From NCBI GenBank assembly GCA_013214065.1, contig JABSPK010000004.1:186001-250000 (forward strand): DNA of 64,000 nucleotides, read 5' to 3'. Both the position numbers and the translations under genes were made by a program. The notes under the pieces were generated by a model. It saw nothing but the letters and a program-made list of their open reading frames with translations, searched no databases and was not told the origin of the DNA. Position 1 is the first letter of the stretch; each line of letters begins with the position of its first letter. Shown here one piece after another: positions 9,028 to 14,266 of the stretch. The stretch is from Flavobacteriaceae bacterium. GTDB taxonomy: Bacteria; Bacteroidota; Bacteroidia; Flavobacteriales; Flavobacteriaceae.

Positions 9028-9924
9028 TCAAGAAGCGGTCAATTCGGTGAAAAGTGTTTCGAGGTTTTTGTTCTTTCGACTCAATTGCAAGGTTTTTAGC
9101 TGGTTGTCATGGGCGAAATCGAATACGGCCGGGCGCATGTCGGTGTCGGTATCGAATTCGATTTCATAGACGAAACCACCTGTGTTTTTCACCTGCTTTA
9201 CATGCCCAAGTTGTTTGAGCAACACTTCTTCGACGCGATAATCAAATTCGACTTCGATGATTTGCGAGGTCGCCTCACGTAAGGCTTCGATTTTTTTATC
9301 GGCAACGATTTCCCCTTTGTTGATGATGATGACCCGATCGCATACGGCCTCGACTTCTTTCATGATATGGGTCGAAAGTAAAATGGTCTTGTGTCGCCCA
9401 ATTTCTTGGATCAGCTTGCGGATTTCGATCAGTTGGTTGGGATCGAGCCCGGTCGTGGGTTCATCCAAGATGAGTACTTCGGGATCGTGTAATAGGGCAG
9501 CGGCCAAACCCACCCTTTGGCGATAGCCTTTCGAAAGCTGTCCGATTTTTTTATGGGCTTCTTGGCCTAGTCCCGTTTTTTCGATGGCTTCGGCTATCGT
9601 AGCCTTATCGACCCCGTAAACCTTCGCATTGAACGCTAAATATTCCTTGACGTACATGTCGAGATAGAGCGGGTTGTGTTCTGGAAGGTACCCGATACTG
9701 CGCTGAACCGATTTTGGGGTTTGTAAAACGTCGAACCCGTTTACTTGCGCATCACCTTCATCGGCACTGTAATAGGTGGTCAGGATCCTCATCAAGGTCG
9801 ATTTGCCAGCGCCATTGGGTCCTAAAAAACCAACGATTTCCCCTTTTTCAATGGTGAAGGAAACCGATTTGAGTGCTTGTTGCTCGCCAAAGGATTTCGA
9901 GATGTTCGAAACGGATATCGACAT
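9028..9924 (-). CDS. gldA: Gliding motility ABC transporter ATPase GldA
   Basis: 298 residues. Walker A is GPNGAGKST (about 35-43), the ABC signature is LSKGYRQRVGLAAALLHDPE, Walker B is VLILDEPTTGLD and the H-loop is STHIM. The C-terminal extension (about 215-298) matches that of GldA. Family knowledge: GldA with GldF and GldG forms the ABC complex required for gliding in Flavobacterium johnsoniae. gldF and gldG are not adjacent here. A perfect -7 box lies 17 bases upstream of the ATG. gldB and gldC are elsewhere in the window. Confidence 0.92.
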   Translation of the reverse strand: MSISVSNISKSFGEQQALKSVSFTIEKGEIVGFLGPNGAGKSTLMRILTTYYSADEGDAQVNGFDVLQTPKSVQRSIGYLPEHNPLYLDMYVKEYLAFNAKVYGVDKATIAEAIEKTGLGQEAHKKIGQLSKGYRQRVGLAAALLHDPEVLILDEPTTGLDPNQLIEIRKLIQEIGRHKTILLSTHIMKEVEAVCDRVIIINKGEIVADKKIEALREATSQIIEVEFDYRVEEVLLKQLGHVKQVKNTGGFVYEIEFDTDTDMRPAVFDFAHDNQLKTLQLSRKNKNLETLFTELTAS

Positions 9925-9941
9925 GGGAGTGGTTTTGATTT

Positions 9942-9949
9942 CAAAAATA
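9942..9949 (-). promoter_or_regulatory. -7 element TATTTTTG of gldA
   Basis: An exact TAnnTTTG match on the minus strand, 17 bases before the gldA ATG at 9924. The rest of the roughly 305-bp gap to pheA holds the aromatic leader described next. Confidence 0.55.
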
Positions 9950-10055
9950 CACTTTCCATTCCATTTCGATATTCTGAATTCTTGGCGGATTCGCGAGCGG
10001 AATATTTACCGAAATCCCTGATTTGCCTAAAAATCCAAAAAATTCCGGGCATTGC

Positions 10056-10084
10056 TTTGAATTCTCGAAGGAATGGATAATCTT
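10056..10084 (+). promoter_or_regulatory. Possible promoter of the aromatic operon
   Basis: TTTG at 10056-10059 and TAATCTTA at 10077-10084 are spaced 17 bp, close to the -33/-7 arrangement. The -7 element matches only 6 of 8 positions. It is the best candidate upstream of the leader-peptide ATG at 10103. Confidence 0.3.
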
Positions 10085-10102
10085 AGCCGGGAATTACGGA
10101 TT

Positions 10103-10171
10103 ATGAACCATACTTATTTCTGGACCGGCTTTTATTTTTACTTCTTTGAGGGAGGTAAGGGGCTGTGCTAG
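10103..10171 (+). CDS. Aromatic leader peptide of the pheA attenuator
   Basis: A 22-codon frame that begins MNHTYFWTGFYFYFF, continues EGGKGLC and ends at TAG 10169-10171. Nine of its 22 residues are aromatic (5 Phe, 3 Tyr, 1 Trp), with the block FYFYFF read consecutively. It lies 58 bases before the pheA ATG, just upstream of a strong terminator hairpin. This is the classical layout of a ribosome-mediated attenuator: stalling at Phe/Tyr codons when those charged tRNAs run short would leave bases 10159-10164 free to form the antiterminator. There is no Shine-Dalgarno sequence, as usual here. Confidence 0.82.
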   Translation: MNHTYFWTGFYFYFFEGGKGLC

Positions 10172-10227
10172 TATAAGATAACGATACAACACTGAAAGTC
10201 CCGAAATCATTCGGGGCTTTTTTTTTT
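10159..10227 (+). terminator. Attenuator: terminator hairpin with competing antiterminator
   Basis: The terminator stem is AGTCCCGAA (10197-10205), loop ATCA, TTCGGGGCT (10210-10218) with one G-U pair, then ten T (10218-10227); pheA starts 2 bases later. GGGGCT at 10159-10164, inside the last leader codons, can pair with AGTCCC at 10197-10202 and would break the terminator. A ribosome reaching the TAG at 10169 covers GGGGCT and lets the terminator form; one stalled in the aromatic block leaves it free. The pairings are read from the sequence and the mechanism is inferred. Confidence 0.8.
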
Positions 10228-10229
10228 GA

Positions 10230-11057
10230 ATGAAACCGAAAATCGCCATACAAGGAGTAAAAGGAAGCAACCACCACCAGGTCGCCCTCGATTATTTTGG
10301 TCAAGACATAGCCTTGGTCGAGTGCCTTTCTTTTGATGCTTTGGTGCAACACCTTCTTGAAGGTACCGCCGATCAAGGGGTGATGGCCCTTGAGAACTCC
10401 ATTGCCGGTTCCATTATCCCGAATTACAACCTGATCTATCATAACGATTTACACATTATCGGGGAGTACTATTTGGGTATCCACCATAACCTCATGGTAC
10501 TGAAAGGCCAAACGATGGCCGATATCGAGGAAGTGCGTACCCACCCCATGGCATTGTTGCAATGCAAGCAGTATCTAAAACAATACCCGCAATTGAAACT
10601 GGTTGAGGACGTTGACACGGCCGAAACCGCGCGTCAGATCCAAAAGTCCCAGCTGGGGCATGTGGCTGCCATTGCCCCGAAGGTCGCTGCTGAATTATAT
10701 GGGTTGGACGTCATTGCGGCAGACATTCAAACGATCAAAAACAATGCGACCCGATTCATCGTATTAAAACGACAGAACAAGGTCCTTCCAAAAGAGGCGA
10801 TCAACAAAGCCTCTTTACGTTTCATAACCGACCACAAAAGGGGAAGCCTTGCCACGGTGCTCAATGTGATGAGCGATTGCAATCTCAACTTGACCAAGAT
10901 ACAATCGCTACCGGTTATCGAAACACCATGGAAATATGCGTTTTTCGTTGATGTGACCTTCGATGACTACGCCTCGTTTGAAAAATCAAAAGCCCTACTC
11001 GAAATCATGTCGGAAGACTTTCGGGTCTTGGGGGAATATCAGAATGCCTTGAAATGA
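10230..11057 (+). CDS. pheA: Prephenate dehydratase
   Basis: 275 residues. It converts prephenate to phenylpyruvate in phenylalanine synthesis. The catalytic domain runs from about 3 to 180, with ALENSIAGSI and the family motif NATRF (TRF, about 171-173). A C-terminal ACT domain (about 195-270) has GSLATVLNVM and LTKIQSLPV, so it is probably inhibited by phenylalanine. There is no fused chorismate mutase; that activity is on the last gene of the operon. It starts 2 bases after the U-tract of the attenuator and overlaps the aminotransferase by 4 bases. Confidence 0.95.
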   Translation: MKPKIAIQGVKGSNHHQVALDYFGQDIALVECLSFDALVQHLLEGTADQGVMALENSIAGSIIPNYNLIYHNDLHIIGEYYLGIHHNLMVLKGQTMADIEEVRTHPMALLQCKQYLKQYPQLKLVEDVDTAETARQIQKSQLGHVAAIAPKVAAELYGLDVIAADIQTIKNNATRFIVLKRQNKVLPKEAINKASLRFITDHKRGSLATVLNVMSDCNLNLTKIQSLPVIETPWKYAFFVDVTFDDYASFEKSKALLEIMSEDFRVLGEYQNALK

Positions 11058-12196
11058 AAACAGCGAACCGGTTACATAGCGTTCAAGAGTACTATTTCTC
11101 CAAAAAATTGCGAGAGGTCCGCGGATTAGTTGCTGCAGGTCGATCGATCATCAATATGGGGATCGGCTCTCCTGACCTCGCCCCATCTGAAGCGGTGATT
11201 GAGGCAATAAGCTCCGCATTGACGGATCAAGGGGCCCATCAGTACCAAAGTTATCAAGGATTGCCGGCTTTACGCGCTGCCATGGCCGAATTCTATGCCG
11301 ATAAATTCGGGGTACGACTCGATGCCGATAAGGAGATTTTACCCCTTATGGGTTCTAAAGAAGGGATCATGCATATCAGCATGGCGTTTTTAAACCCCGG
11401 TGATGAAGTACTTTTACCGAACCCCGGCTATCCGACCTATGCCGCGGTCACCCGATTGGTAGAGGCCGCACCCCGGTTTTACGACCTAAAGGCCGCAAAC
11501 GGGTGGTTTCCTGATCTGGAGGCTTTGGCGACACAAAACCTTTCAAAAGTGAAATTGATGTGGTGCAGCTATCCGCATATGCCCACAGGGGCCACGGCCG
11601 AAAACGAACAGTTCGAAGCCCTGGTGGCTTTTGCCAAATCACACGACATCCTTTTGATTAATGACAATCCGTATAGTTTCGTTCTGAATCCCAGTGCTAA
11701 AAGTATTTTGGCAGTGCCTGGTGCCGCAGGACAGGTATTGGAATTGAATAGCCTGAGCAAAACCTTCAACATGGCCGGATGGCGTGTGGGGATGCTTATG
11801 GGGGACCAAGAACATATCAATGCGGTTTTAAAAGTAAAGAGTAACATGGACTCGGGAATGTTCTATGGCATCCAAAAGGGGGCGATAGCCGCCCTTGAAA
11901 GCGGTCAGGAATGGTTCGAAGCGCTAGATGACGTCTATTCGCGAAGAAGGAGCGCGATCTATGAATTGGTCGAAGCCTTGGGCTGCTCATACGACCCTGG
12001 GGCAGTGGGGATGTTCGTTTGGGCCAAGTTACCGGAAGGCGCCAAAAAAGCCGAGACTTATATTGACGAGCTGCTCTATGATAAGAATATTTTCGTAGCA
12101 CCGGGAACGATTTTCGGAAGCAATGGGGAAGGCTATATCAGATTCTCCTTATGTGTCACCGAAGAAAAGATAAAAGAGGCGATAGCCCGATTATAG
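11054..12196 (+). CDS. Class I/II PLP-dependent aminotransferase, probably aromatic
   Basis: 380 residues. The fold-type I aminotransferase motifs are present: NMGIGSPDLAPS, YQSYQGLPALRAAMAEFY, NPGYPTYAA, INDNPYSF, and SLSKTFNMAGWRVG, in which the Lys binds PLP. Its place between pheA and tyrA, overlapping pheA by ATGA and one base from tyrA, points to the transamination of phenylpyruvate and 4-hydroxyphenylpyruvate to Phe and Tyr. By sequence alone it could also serve other amino donors such as aspartate. Confidence 0.88.
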   Translation: MKTANRLHSVQEYYFSKKLREVRGLVAAGRSIINMGIGSPDLAPSEAVIEAISSALTDQGAHQYQSYQGLPALRAAMAEFYADKFGVRLDADKEILPLMGSKEGIMHISMAFLNPGDEVLLPNPGYPTYAAVTRLVEAAPRFYDLKAANGWFPDLEALATQNLSKVKLMWCSYPHMPTGATAENEQFEALVAFAKSHDILLINDNPYSFVLNPSAKSILAVPGAAGQVLELNSLSKTFNMAGWRVGMLMGDQEHINAVLKVKSNMDSGMFYGIQKGAIAALESGQEWFEALDDVYSRRRSAIYELVEALGCSYDPGAVGMFVWAKLPEGAKKAETYIDELLYDKNIFVAPGTIFGSNGEGYIRFSLCVTEEKIKEAIARL

Positions 12197-12197
12197 T

Positions 12198-13067
12198 ATG
12201 GAAAATGTAGTGATCATCGGAGTTGGCCTAATCGGCGGTTCTTTTGCCAAGGGAATCAAGCGACTGCACCCTGCGGTTTCGATCCAGGGGGCCGATGCCA
12301 ATGCCCGACATTTGGAAGAAGCCCTCGCACAGGGCCTCATCGATGACAAGGCCGATACGGATGCCCTGAAAAAAGCCGATATGGTACTCCTTGCGATTCC
12401 GGTCGATGCCTTGGTCAGTGAATTGCCCAAAGTGTTGGATGCCGTCAACGATAGTTGTGTGGTCGTAGATGCAGGTTCGACTAAGGCCCTGATCTGCGAA
12501 ACGGTAGCCGATCATCCAAAACGTCGCAACTACTTGTCGTGCCATCCGATCGCTGGAACCGAATTCTCAGGTCCTTCGGCTGCCTTTGATGGCTTGTACG
12601 ATGGTAAGACGAACATTATTTGCGAGGTTGAAATGACCGCGTTTCAATTACAGGAACGGGCTTTGAAACTGTTTCAAGACCTGGGCATGCGCATCCGGTA
12701 TATGAACCCCGATGCCCATGACAAGCATATCGCCTACGTGTCGCACTTGTCGCACATCAGTTCCTTTATGTTGGGCAAGACCGTCATTGAAAAGGAAAAA
12801 AACGAACGCGATATCTTCGATATGGCAGGGAGTGGTTTTGAAAGTACCGTAAGGCTGGCCAAAAGTTCACCGGATATGTGGACACCGATTTTCGAACAGA
12901 ACAAGGCCAATGTTATCGAGACCTTGGACGAATACATACAAAATCTGGAAGCCTTTAAAGCGCTGATGCAATCAGGTGATTTCAAGGCGATCTACGATGA
13001 AATGAACAATACGAATCGAATAAAACAAATCTTAAAAGGAATACCCCTTACTAAAACAGCAGATTGA
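12198..13067 (+). CDS. tyrA: Prephenate dehydrogenase
   Basis: 289 residues. An N-terminal Rossmann domain has VIIGVGLIGGSFAKGI for NAD(P) binding. A helical domain with CHPIAGTEFSGP and HDKHIAYVSHLSHISSFML carries the prephenate-binding histidines. It oxidatively decarboxylates prephenate to 4-hydroxyphenylpyruvate for tyrosine. There is no C-terminal ACT domain, so feedback control may come from the attenuator or another enzyme. Its TGA overlaps the start region of the next gene. Confidence 0.93.
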   Translation: MENVVIIGVGLIGGSFAKGIKRLHPAVSIQGADANARHLEEALAQGLIDDKADTDALKKADMVLLAIPVDALVSELPKVLDAVNDSCVVVDAGSTKALICETVADHPKRRNYLSCHPIAGTEFSGPSAAFDGLYDGKTNIICEVEMTAFQLQERALKLFQDLGMRIRYMNPDAHDKHIAYVSHLSHISSFMLGKTVIEKEKNERDIFDMAGSGFESTVRLAKSSPDMWTPIFEQNKANVIETLDEYIQNLEAFKALMQSGDFKAIYDEMNNTNRIKQILKGIPLTKTAD

Positions 13068-13069
13068 AA

Positions 13070-14152
13070 ATGGAAAATTCAAAAAACTTACGGACCTGGT
13101 TAGATGAAATGGAATTACCGCACCCGTTGGTCATTGCCGGTCCGTGCAGCGCGGAAACCGAGGAGCAGGTGTTGAAGATCGCCCACGAATTGAAAGACTC
13201 CGACGTAAGCTACTACCGCGCCGGGATATGGAAACCGCGAACAAGACCCGGTAATTTCGAAGGGGTAGGTGCCATAGGCCTTAAATGGCTGCAAAAGGTA
13301 AAGGAAGAGACCGGATTGAAAACCGCTACCGAAGTGGCGAATAAAGCCCATGTCGATTTGGCTTTGGAGCACGATGTCGACCTGCTATGGATCGGGGCCC
13401 GTTCAACGGTGAGTCCATTTATCGTACAAGAGATCGCCGATGCCTTGGAAGGTACCGATAAGGTCGTTCTGATCAAAAACCCGGTCAATCCAGATCTATC
13501 TTTATGGCTTGGGGCTGTCGAGCGATTGCATTCGGCCAATATCGAAAAACTGGGGGTCATCCACAGAGGGTTTTCAACTTATCAAAAAACGAAATACCGC
13601 AACATTCCCGAATGGCAGTTGGCAATCGAATTACAGAGCAGGTTTCCTGACTTGCCTTTGATCAATGACCCTAGCCACATCACCGGAAAACGTGATATGG
13701 TCTTCGATGTATCGCAAACCGCCCTTGATTTGAACTTTGACGGTTTGATGATCGAAACCCATAACGATCCGGATAACGCTTGGAGTGATGCCGCCCAACA
13801 GGTCACCCCAACGGTGCTAAAGCAGATGTTCAAAGACTTGAAAATGCGAAAGGAGACCGATGAAGAAGCCGAGTATAATGCCCATTTGGCCAATCTAAGA
13901 GCCCAAATCGATGTAATCGACAATAAATTGATTGAAATGATGGGGGATCGTATGAAGGTTTCCGATGGTATCGGTGCCCTAAAAAAGAAACGCAACGTAG
14001 CCGTGCTTCAAACCAACCGATGGAACGCCATCTTGGGTAAGATGATCTTGGAAGGGGAGCAATATGGGTTGAGCGAGGAGTTCGTGCTCCGCATGTTCAA
14101 GGCCATCCACCAAGAATCGATCAATCATCAAGAAAAGATCATCAATGCTTAA
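13070..14152 (+). CDS. Bifunctional DAHP synthase (type I-beta)/chorismate mutase (AroQ)
   Basis: 360 residues from the ATG at 13070; a TTG two codons earlier is possible. The DAHP synthase barrel (about 10-265) has VIAGPCSAET, YRAGIWKPRTRPGNFEG, LLWIGARST, KNPVNPD and NDPSHITGKR. The C-terminal chorismate mutase type II domain (about 270-358) has LRAQIDVIDNKLIEMM, RMKVSDGIGALKKKR and FKAIHQESI. It therefore performs the first committed step of the shikimate pathway and the branch step to prephenate. As last gene of the operon it puts the whole route under the leader attenuator. Confidence 0.93.
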   Translation: MENSKNLRTWLDEMELPHPLVIAGPCSAETEEQVLKIAHELKDSDVSYYRAGIWKPRTRPGNFEGVGAIGLKWLQKVKEETGLKTATEVANKAHVDLALEHDVDLLWIGARSTVSPFIVQEIADALEGTDKVVLIKNPVNPDLSLWLGAVERLHSANIEKLGVIHRGFSTYQKTKYRNIPEWQLAIELQSRFPDLPLINDPSHITGKRDMVFDVSQTALDLNFDGLMIETHNDPDNAWSDAAQQVTPTVLKQMFKDLKMRKETDEEAEYNAHLANLRAQIDVIDNKLIEMMGDRMKVSDGIGALKKKRNVAVLQTNRWNAILGKMILEGEQYGLSEEFVLRMFKAIHQESINHQEKIINA

Positions 14153-14176: not shown

Positions 14177-14207
14177 ATGCCATTTCAAACGAAATGGCAT
14201 TTTTTTT
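14177..14207 (+). terminator. Rho-independent terminator of the aromatic operon
   Basis: A perfect 10-bp stem ATGCCATTTC/GAAATGGCAT with an AAAC loop, followed by eight T. It lies 24 bases after the DAHP synthase stop. Confidence 0.88.
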
Positions 14208-14266
14208 GATTGGTACTGTAACAAATCGAAAATCCGACAATCATTCAACAAACAAATCACTACAAC

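Follow-up and report, generated by a model that had tools for sequence, protein, structure and literature searches.

Aromatic-rich leaders and terminators ahead of pheA point to ribosome-mediated attenuation in Flavobacteriaceae

Introduction

Upstream of pheA in Escherichia coli, the pheL leader combines a short Phe-rich frame, a terminator and an alternative pairing. Attenuation by leader peptides is known in detail from Proteobacteria and Actinobacteria; to our knowledge, it has hardly been described in Bacteroidota. The leaders of trp and his operons likewise rely on a stalled ribosome and on the choice between antiterminator and terminator, for other amino acids and at other loci. In Flavobacterium psychrophilum, a pheA 5′ element has been reported that lacks an Rfam hit and is conserved across other genera of Flavobacteriaceae, as well as clues to leader-peptide attenuation ahead of operons for amino-acid biosynthesis (PMC9723704); the passages of that paper that concern the pheA element give neither a leader sequence nor a mechanism for it. 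Apart from PMC9723704, our literature search on attenuation in Bacteroidetes turned up nothing specific; a study that PMC4833913 cites, Lopatovskaya et al. 2010, may be relevant.

Here we analyse the leader of a pheA operon in a 64,000-nucleotide stretch of a Flavobacteriaceae genome (the window). An earlier, sequence-only reading of the window had proposed a ribosome-stalling attenuator at this site. Conservation, an antiterminator that tracks its terminator and a conserved operon now support that proposal, and we conclude that the element is very probably a ribosome-mediated transcription attenuator of the trp/phe-leader type.

Results

The region upstream of pheA in the window holds the following features:

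10056–10086 (+): promoter-like site, TTTG at 10056–10059 and TAATCTTAG at 10078–10086
10103–10171 (+): leader peptide ORF, 22 codons from ATG to TAG, MNHTYFWTGFYFYFFEGGKGLC
10115–10123 (+): first aromatic codons, Tyr-Phe-Trp (codons 5–7)
10130–10147 (+): control block, Phe-Tyr-Phe-Tyr-Phe-Phe
10194–10227 (+): intrinsic terminator, stem 10194–10205/10210–10221, ten T at 10218–10227

The 22-codon frame with nine aromatic residues described in the sequence-only reading is present, the residues being Y5 F6 W7 and F10 Y11 F12 Y13 F14 F15. Its account of a strong terminator also holds for the ten T and for the 2 bases between the end of the T-run and the pheA ATG at 10230; the distance from the leader stop to the terminator is 22 bases, not 26. 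Folding of the leader RNA, proposed there as a check, was better than in all 200 of 200 shuffles (z −3.3). The gene upstream of the leader, whose sequence looks like that of an ABC transporter ATPase, runs divergently; the terminator at 10194–10227 therefore ends no other same-strand gene. A conserved box of the form TAN(1-3)(Y)TTAG precedes the leader ATG by at most 40 nt in 142 of 158 distinct loci; a control window contained it in 5. It lies mostly 13–26 nt from the ATG (as TAN(1-3)YTTAG) and resembles a Bacteroidota promoter whose 5′ UTR would be very short.

Relatives bear out the conservation that had been put forward as a test of the proposal. An aromatic-rich mini-frame with a terminator was found at 168 of 169 Flavobacteriaceae pheA loci (the window's own copies excluded); the sole exception (L018) lies at the end of a contig, where 149 bases precede pheA. 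Every family locus with the leader has a hairpin with a T-run 3′ of it. The loci came from 80 named genomes plus additional family genomes, some genomes being in both sets, and gave 160 distinct leader-to-pheA sequences. Best pheA matches were sampled first, so that distant family members are under-sampled, and 37 of 397 family genomes had no pheA match. Twenty-six additional family loci (L175–L200, genomes partly overlapping) all have the leader, some with a pheA just 49–54% identical, and so does L226, whose pheA is 44% identical. At L020 and L049, the best-scoring hairpin with a T-run lies 260–300 bases past the leader; either it outscored a nearer terminator or the spacing is unusual.

The same plan, with different terminator sequences, recurs in most of the loci sampled from other families of Bacteroidia: across six families (25 loci), an aromatic frame was found in 21 and a terminator close behind it in 20. 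The four loci lacking the aromatic leader (L201, L215, L216 and L217) belong to four genomes of one such family and may have lost it. Their pheA ranks among the closest found beyond the window's own family, and L233, L234 and L249 of the same family keep the leader. In other classes of the phylum (15 loci), the leader was absent from 12 (L239–L248, L253 and L254). It was present in L219, L224 and L238, in which pheA is far closer to that of the window than is the pheA of their neighbours, which suggests either transfer of the operon together with its leader or misplacement.

Two further elements lie ahead of the terminator:

10159–10164 (+): antiterminator strand GGGGCT, complement of the terminator 5′ arm, which it tracks across the class
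10135–10161 (+): leader hairpin 1:2, 10135–10146 with 10150–10161, −7.9 kcal/mol

The pairing that had been read from the window alone, GGGGCT (10159–10164) with AGTCCC (10197–10202) of the terminator arm, comprises five Watson–Crick pairs and one G-U, and the complementarity follows the terminator sequence in relatives. It appears as GGGACT/AGTCCC, GAGACT/AGTCTC, GGAACT/AGTTCC and GGAGCT/AGCTCC, and as AGGATTGT with AATCCTG arms; GCCGGG types occur outside the family. When leaders were matched with the terminators of other loci (54 loci, one per distinct arm), the longest match between leader end and terminator arm fell from a mean of 6.35 bases to 4.86 (sd 0.13), and 0 of 2000 re-pairings equalled the true one. 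The result was the same for the 24 distant loci alone (20 of other Bacteroidia families, 3 of other classes and L226), at 6.33 versus 5.02 and again 0 of 2000. In L132 and L155 the frame stops where the antiterminator strand starts, and the strand is nonetheless kept. In some loci (for example, L192, L195 and L224), strict complementarity extends over just 4 bases.

An automatic alignment also shows the antiterminator covariation, with some rows one base out of register. On the pheA tree, the two best antiterminator columns (74/139 and 85/138) change in the same direction only; the support they give has the expected sign, and the events are too few for significance. Taken together, the covariation and the re-pairing test argue for an antiterminator whose formation would exclude the terminator. 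Leader hairpin 1:2 covaries above shuffles; a tree-aware test gives no support, and we do not uphold it as an independently covarying element. It may act as a pause or protector hairpin. A mini-hairpin in the spacer between the antiterminator strands (GTAT...ATAC) was discarded, its stems being hardly longer than in shuffles.

Clustered codons for an operon product within a short ORF, and a terminator between that ORF and the first gene, are what an attenuator is expected to have, and both were found. Stalling, termination and the sensing of Tyr or Trp besides Phe are what we infer from these sequences. Transcription would start just upstream of the leader. With plentiful charged tRNA-Phe and tRNA-Tyr, the ribosome would reach the leader stop and cover 10159–10164; the terminator at 10194–10227 would then form and RNA polymerase would halt before pheA. 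If Phe or Tyr were scarce, the ribosome would stall in the aromatic block, leaving 10159–10164 free to pair with the terminator 5′ arm and permitting read-through as far as the DAHP synthase/chorismate mutase gene.

In our stall model, the ribosome covers 15 bases, counted downstream from the first base of its P-site codon. Stalls at codon 16 or earlier left the terminator 5′ arm in upstream pairing (about 0.7); stalls at codon 18 or later left it free (about 0.1). Leaders of 23 codons have their last aromatic codon at position 16; the leader of the window has it at position 15, and there the model gives about 0.5 and 0.1. The model thus puts the switch point at the last aromatic codon, and by its values read-through would be possible from a stall at any aromatic codon, Trp codon 7 included. 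Of 106 distinct 23-codon leaders, 78 have Trp as codon 7 and the remainder mostly Phe or Tyr. The same simple folding model did not predict termination of untranslated RNA; this leader may differ from that of E. coli trp, or the model may be too simple. The window's terminator (−16.2 kcal/mol) is more stable than its antiterminator fold (−10.4 kcal/mol), so competition between them would be kinetic; averaged over the family, the two differ little (−14.8 and −14.4 kcal/mol).

Control could instead be translational, the hairpin beside the pheA start blocking or admitting ribosomes and the leader acting through coupling or reinitiation. The close spacing of stem end and pheA start (8 bases in the window, 5–10 in many family members) would suit such an arrangement, which we nevertheless consider very improbable: among relatives with leader and hairpin, the gap from hairpin to pheA ranges from 5 to more than 100 bases, and the T-run is always kept.

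The leader codons bear on a second alternative, in which the nascent peptide, rather than codon supply, stalls the ribosome on free aromatic amino acid. Family leaders have a consensus of approximately MTKTYFWNGFYFYFFFKRGTGLL, and the strong conservation of the FYFYFF(F) block, with WNG ahead of it in many, is what an arrest peptide might look like. Codons 10 and 12 alternate between TTT and TTC with Phe constant, so the amino acid appears to be under selection at both. Codons 13–15 (TAC TTC TTT) and the strand GGACTG are near-invariant at the nucleotide level, as expected if both also pair as RNA. Against an arrest peptide, Phe and Tyr interchange at several positions, the block is very different across the class and the residues past it track the RNA pairing; we rate it as even less probable than translational control.

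That a chance or unrelated small ORF merely sits next to an ordinary terminator is the least credible explanation of all: Phe and Tyr codons are T-rich and may cluster randomly in A+T-rich DNA, but the aromatic density (8 of 10 residues) was equalled by only 1 of 2000 dinucleotide shuffles of the intergenic region and at 0 of 55 other gene starts tested in the window, and family-wide conservation, synonymous variation, co-varying pairing and the lack of a same-strand upstream gene needing a terminator likewise speak against it.

The attenuator would control the following genes, whose identities are those named in the sequence-only reading:

10230–11057 (+): pheA, prephenate dehydratase with ACT domain (PF00800, PF01842)
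11054–12196 (+): class I/II aminotransferase (PF00155)
12198–13067 (+): tyrA, prephenate dehydrogenase (PF02153, PF20463; NF006307 above cut-off)
13070–14152 (+): DAHP synthase fused to chorismate mutase (type II) (PF00793, PF01817)
14178–14208 (+): probable operon-end terminator, inverted repeat AATGCCATTTC/GAAATGGCATT followed by a T-run

Gene order is conserved in all 77 loci long enough to show the four genes. A second PF00793 protein of the genome, considered as another DAHP synthase, is a KDO-8-phosphate synthase, and no type II DAHP synthase was found in the genome; the operon therefore has the only DAHP synthase found there. Across 100 family genera, each genome has one strong DAHP synthase/chorismate mutase match, except about three (G042, G047 and G277), with the location of that match within the pheA operon established for the 77 loci only. 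The usual second match has the strength of a KDO-8-phosphate synthase, and type II DAHP synthases numbered 0 among the 100 genera.

Comparable leaders stand before two other operons of the same genome. Ahead of hisG (C18, L209), a 17-codon His3 frame, MKNVSTHHHIVTIAQAR, is followed by a strong terminator, and ahead of trpE on the minus strand of C19 (L211), a 17-codon Trp3 frame, MQLRNTSWWWKNLRQIS, is followed by a terminator. These are likely His and Trp leader attenuators, and with both in one genome attenuation seems to be a general habit there. Two further weak RNA-model matches in the genome lie at gene ends and were taken as ordinary terminators.

Discussion

If the pheA leader is an attenuator, it could have a wider role. 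A single leader might read the supply of Phe, Tyr and, in most Flavobacteriaceae, Trp, and so set the cell's only DAHP synthase, hence entry into the shikimate pathway, across much of Bacteroidia. We offer this broader proposal tentatively and hold it to be rather doubtful at present.

With its conservation across the family and much of the class as sampled, the leader provides a ready model with natural variants. Because the operon has the only DAHP synthase found, it also yields a testable account of how aromatic amino-acid synthesis is controlled in these bacteria. It adds an RNA family missing from Rfam, and small ORFs that annotation likely overlooks. A search of the leader region against Rfam gave no family above its own threshold. 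Phe_leader (RF01859) scored 24.3 bits, below its gathering score of 55, so the leader is not a member by score; the T-box covariance model had no match up to E 10 in 9900–10400.

The mechanism proposed is a textbook one, and a conserved pheA 5′ element has already been reported in a Flavobacterium (PMC9723704). New here are the leader sequence, how deeply it is conserved, its co-varying switch and the connection to the only DAHP synthase found. With the E. coli pheA leader (pheL; RF01859), the window's leader shares the Phe-rich frame, the terminator and the alternative pairing; unlike it, the window's leader mixes in Tyr and Trp codons, Trp being frequent in relatives too, and leads an operon of four genes that include tyrA and DAHP synthase.
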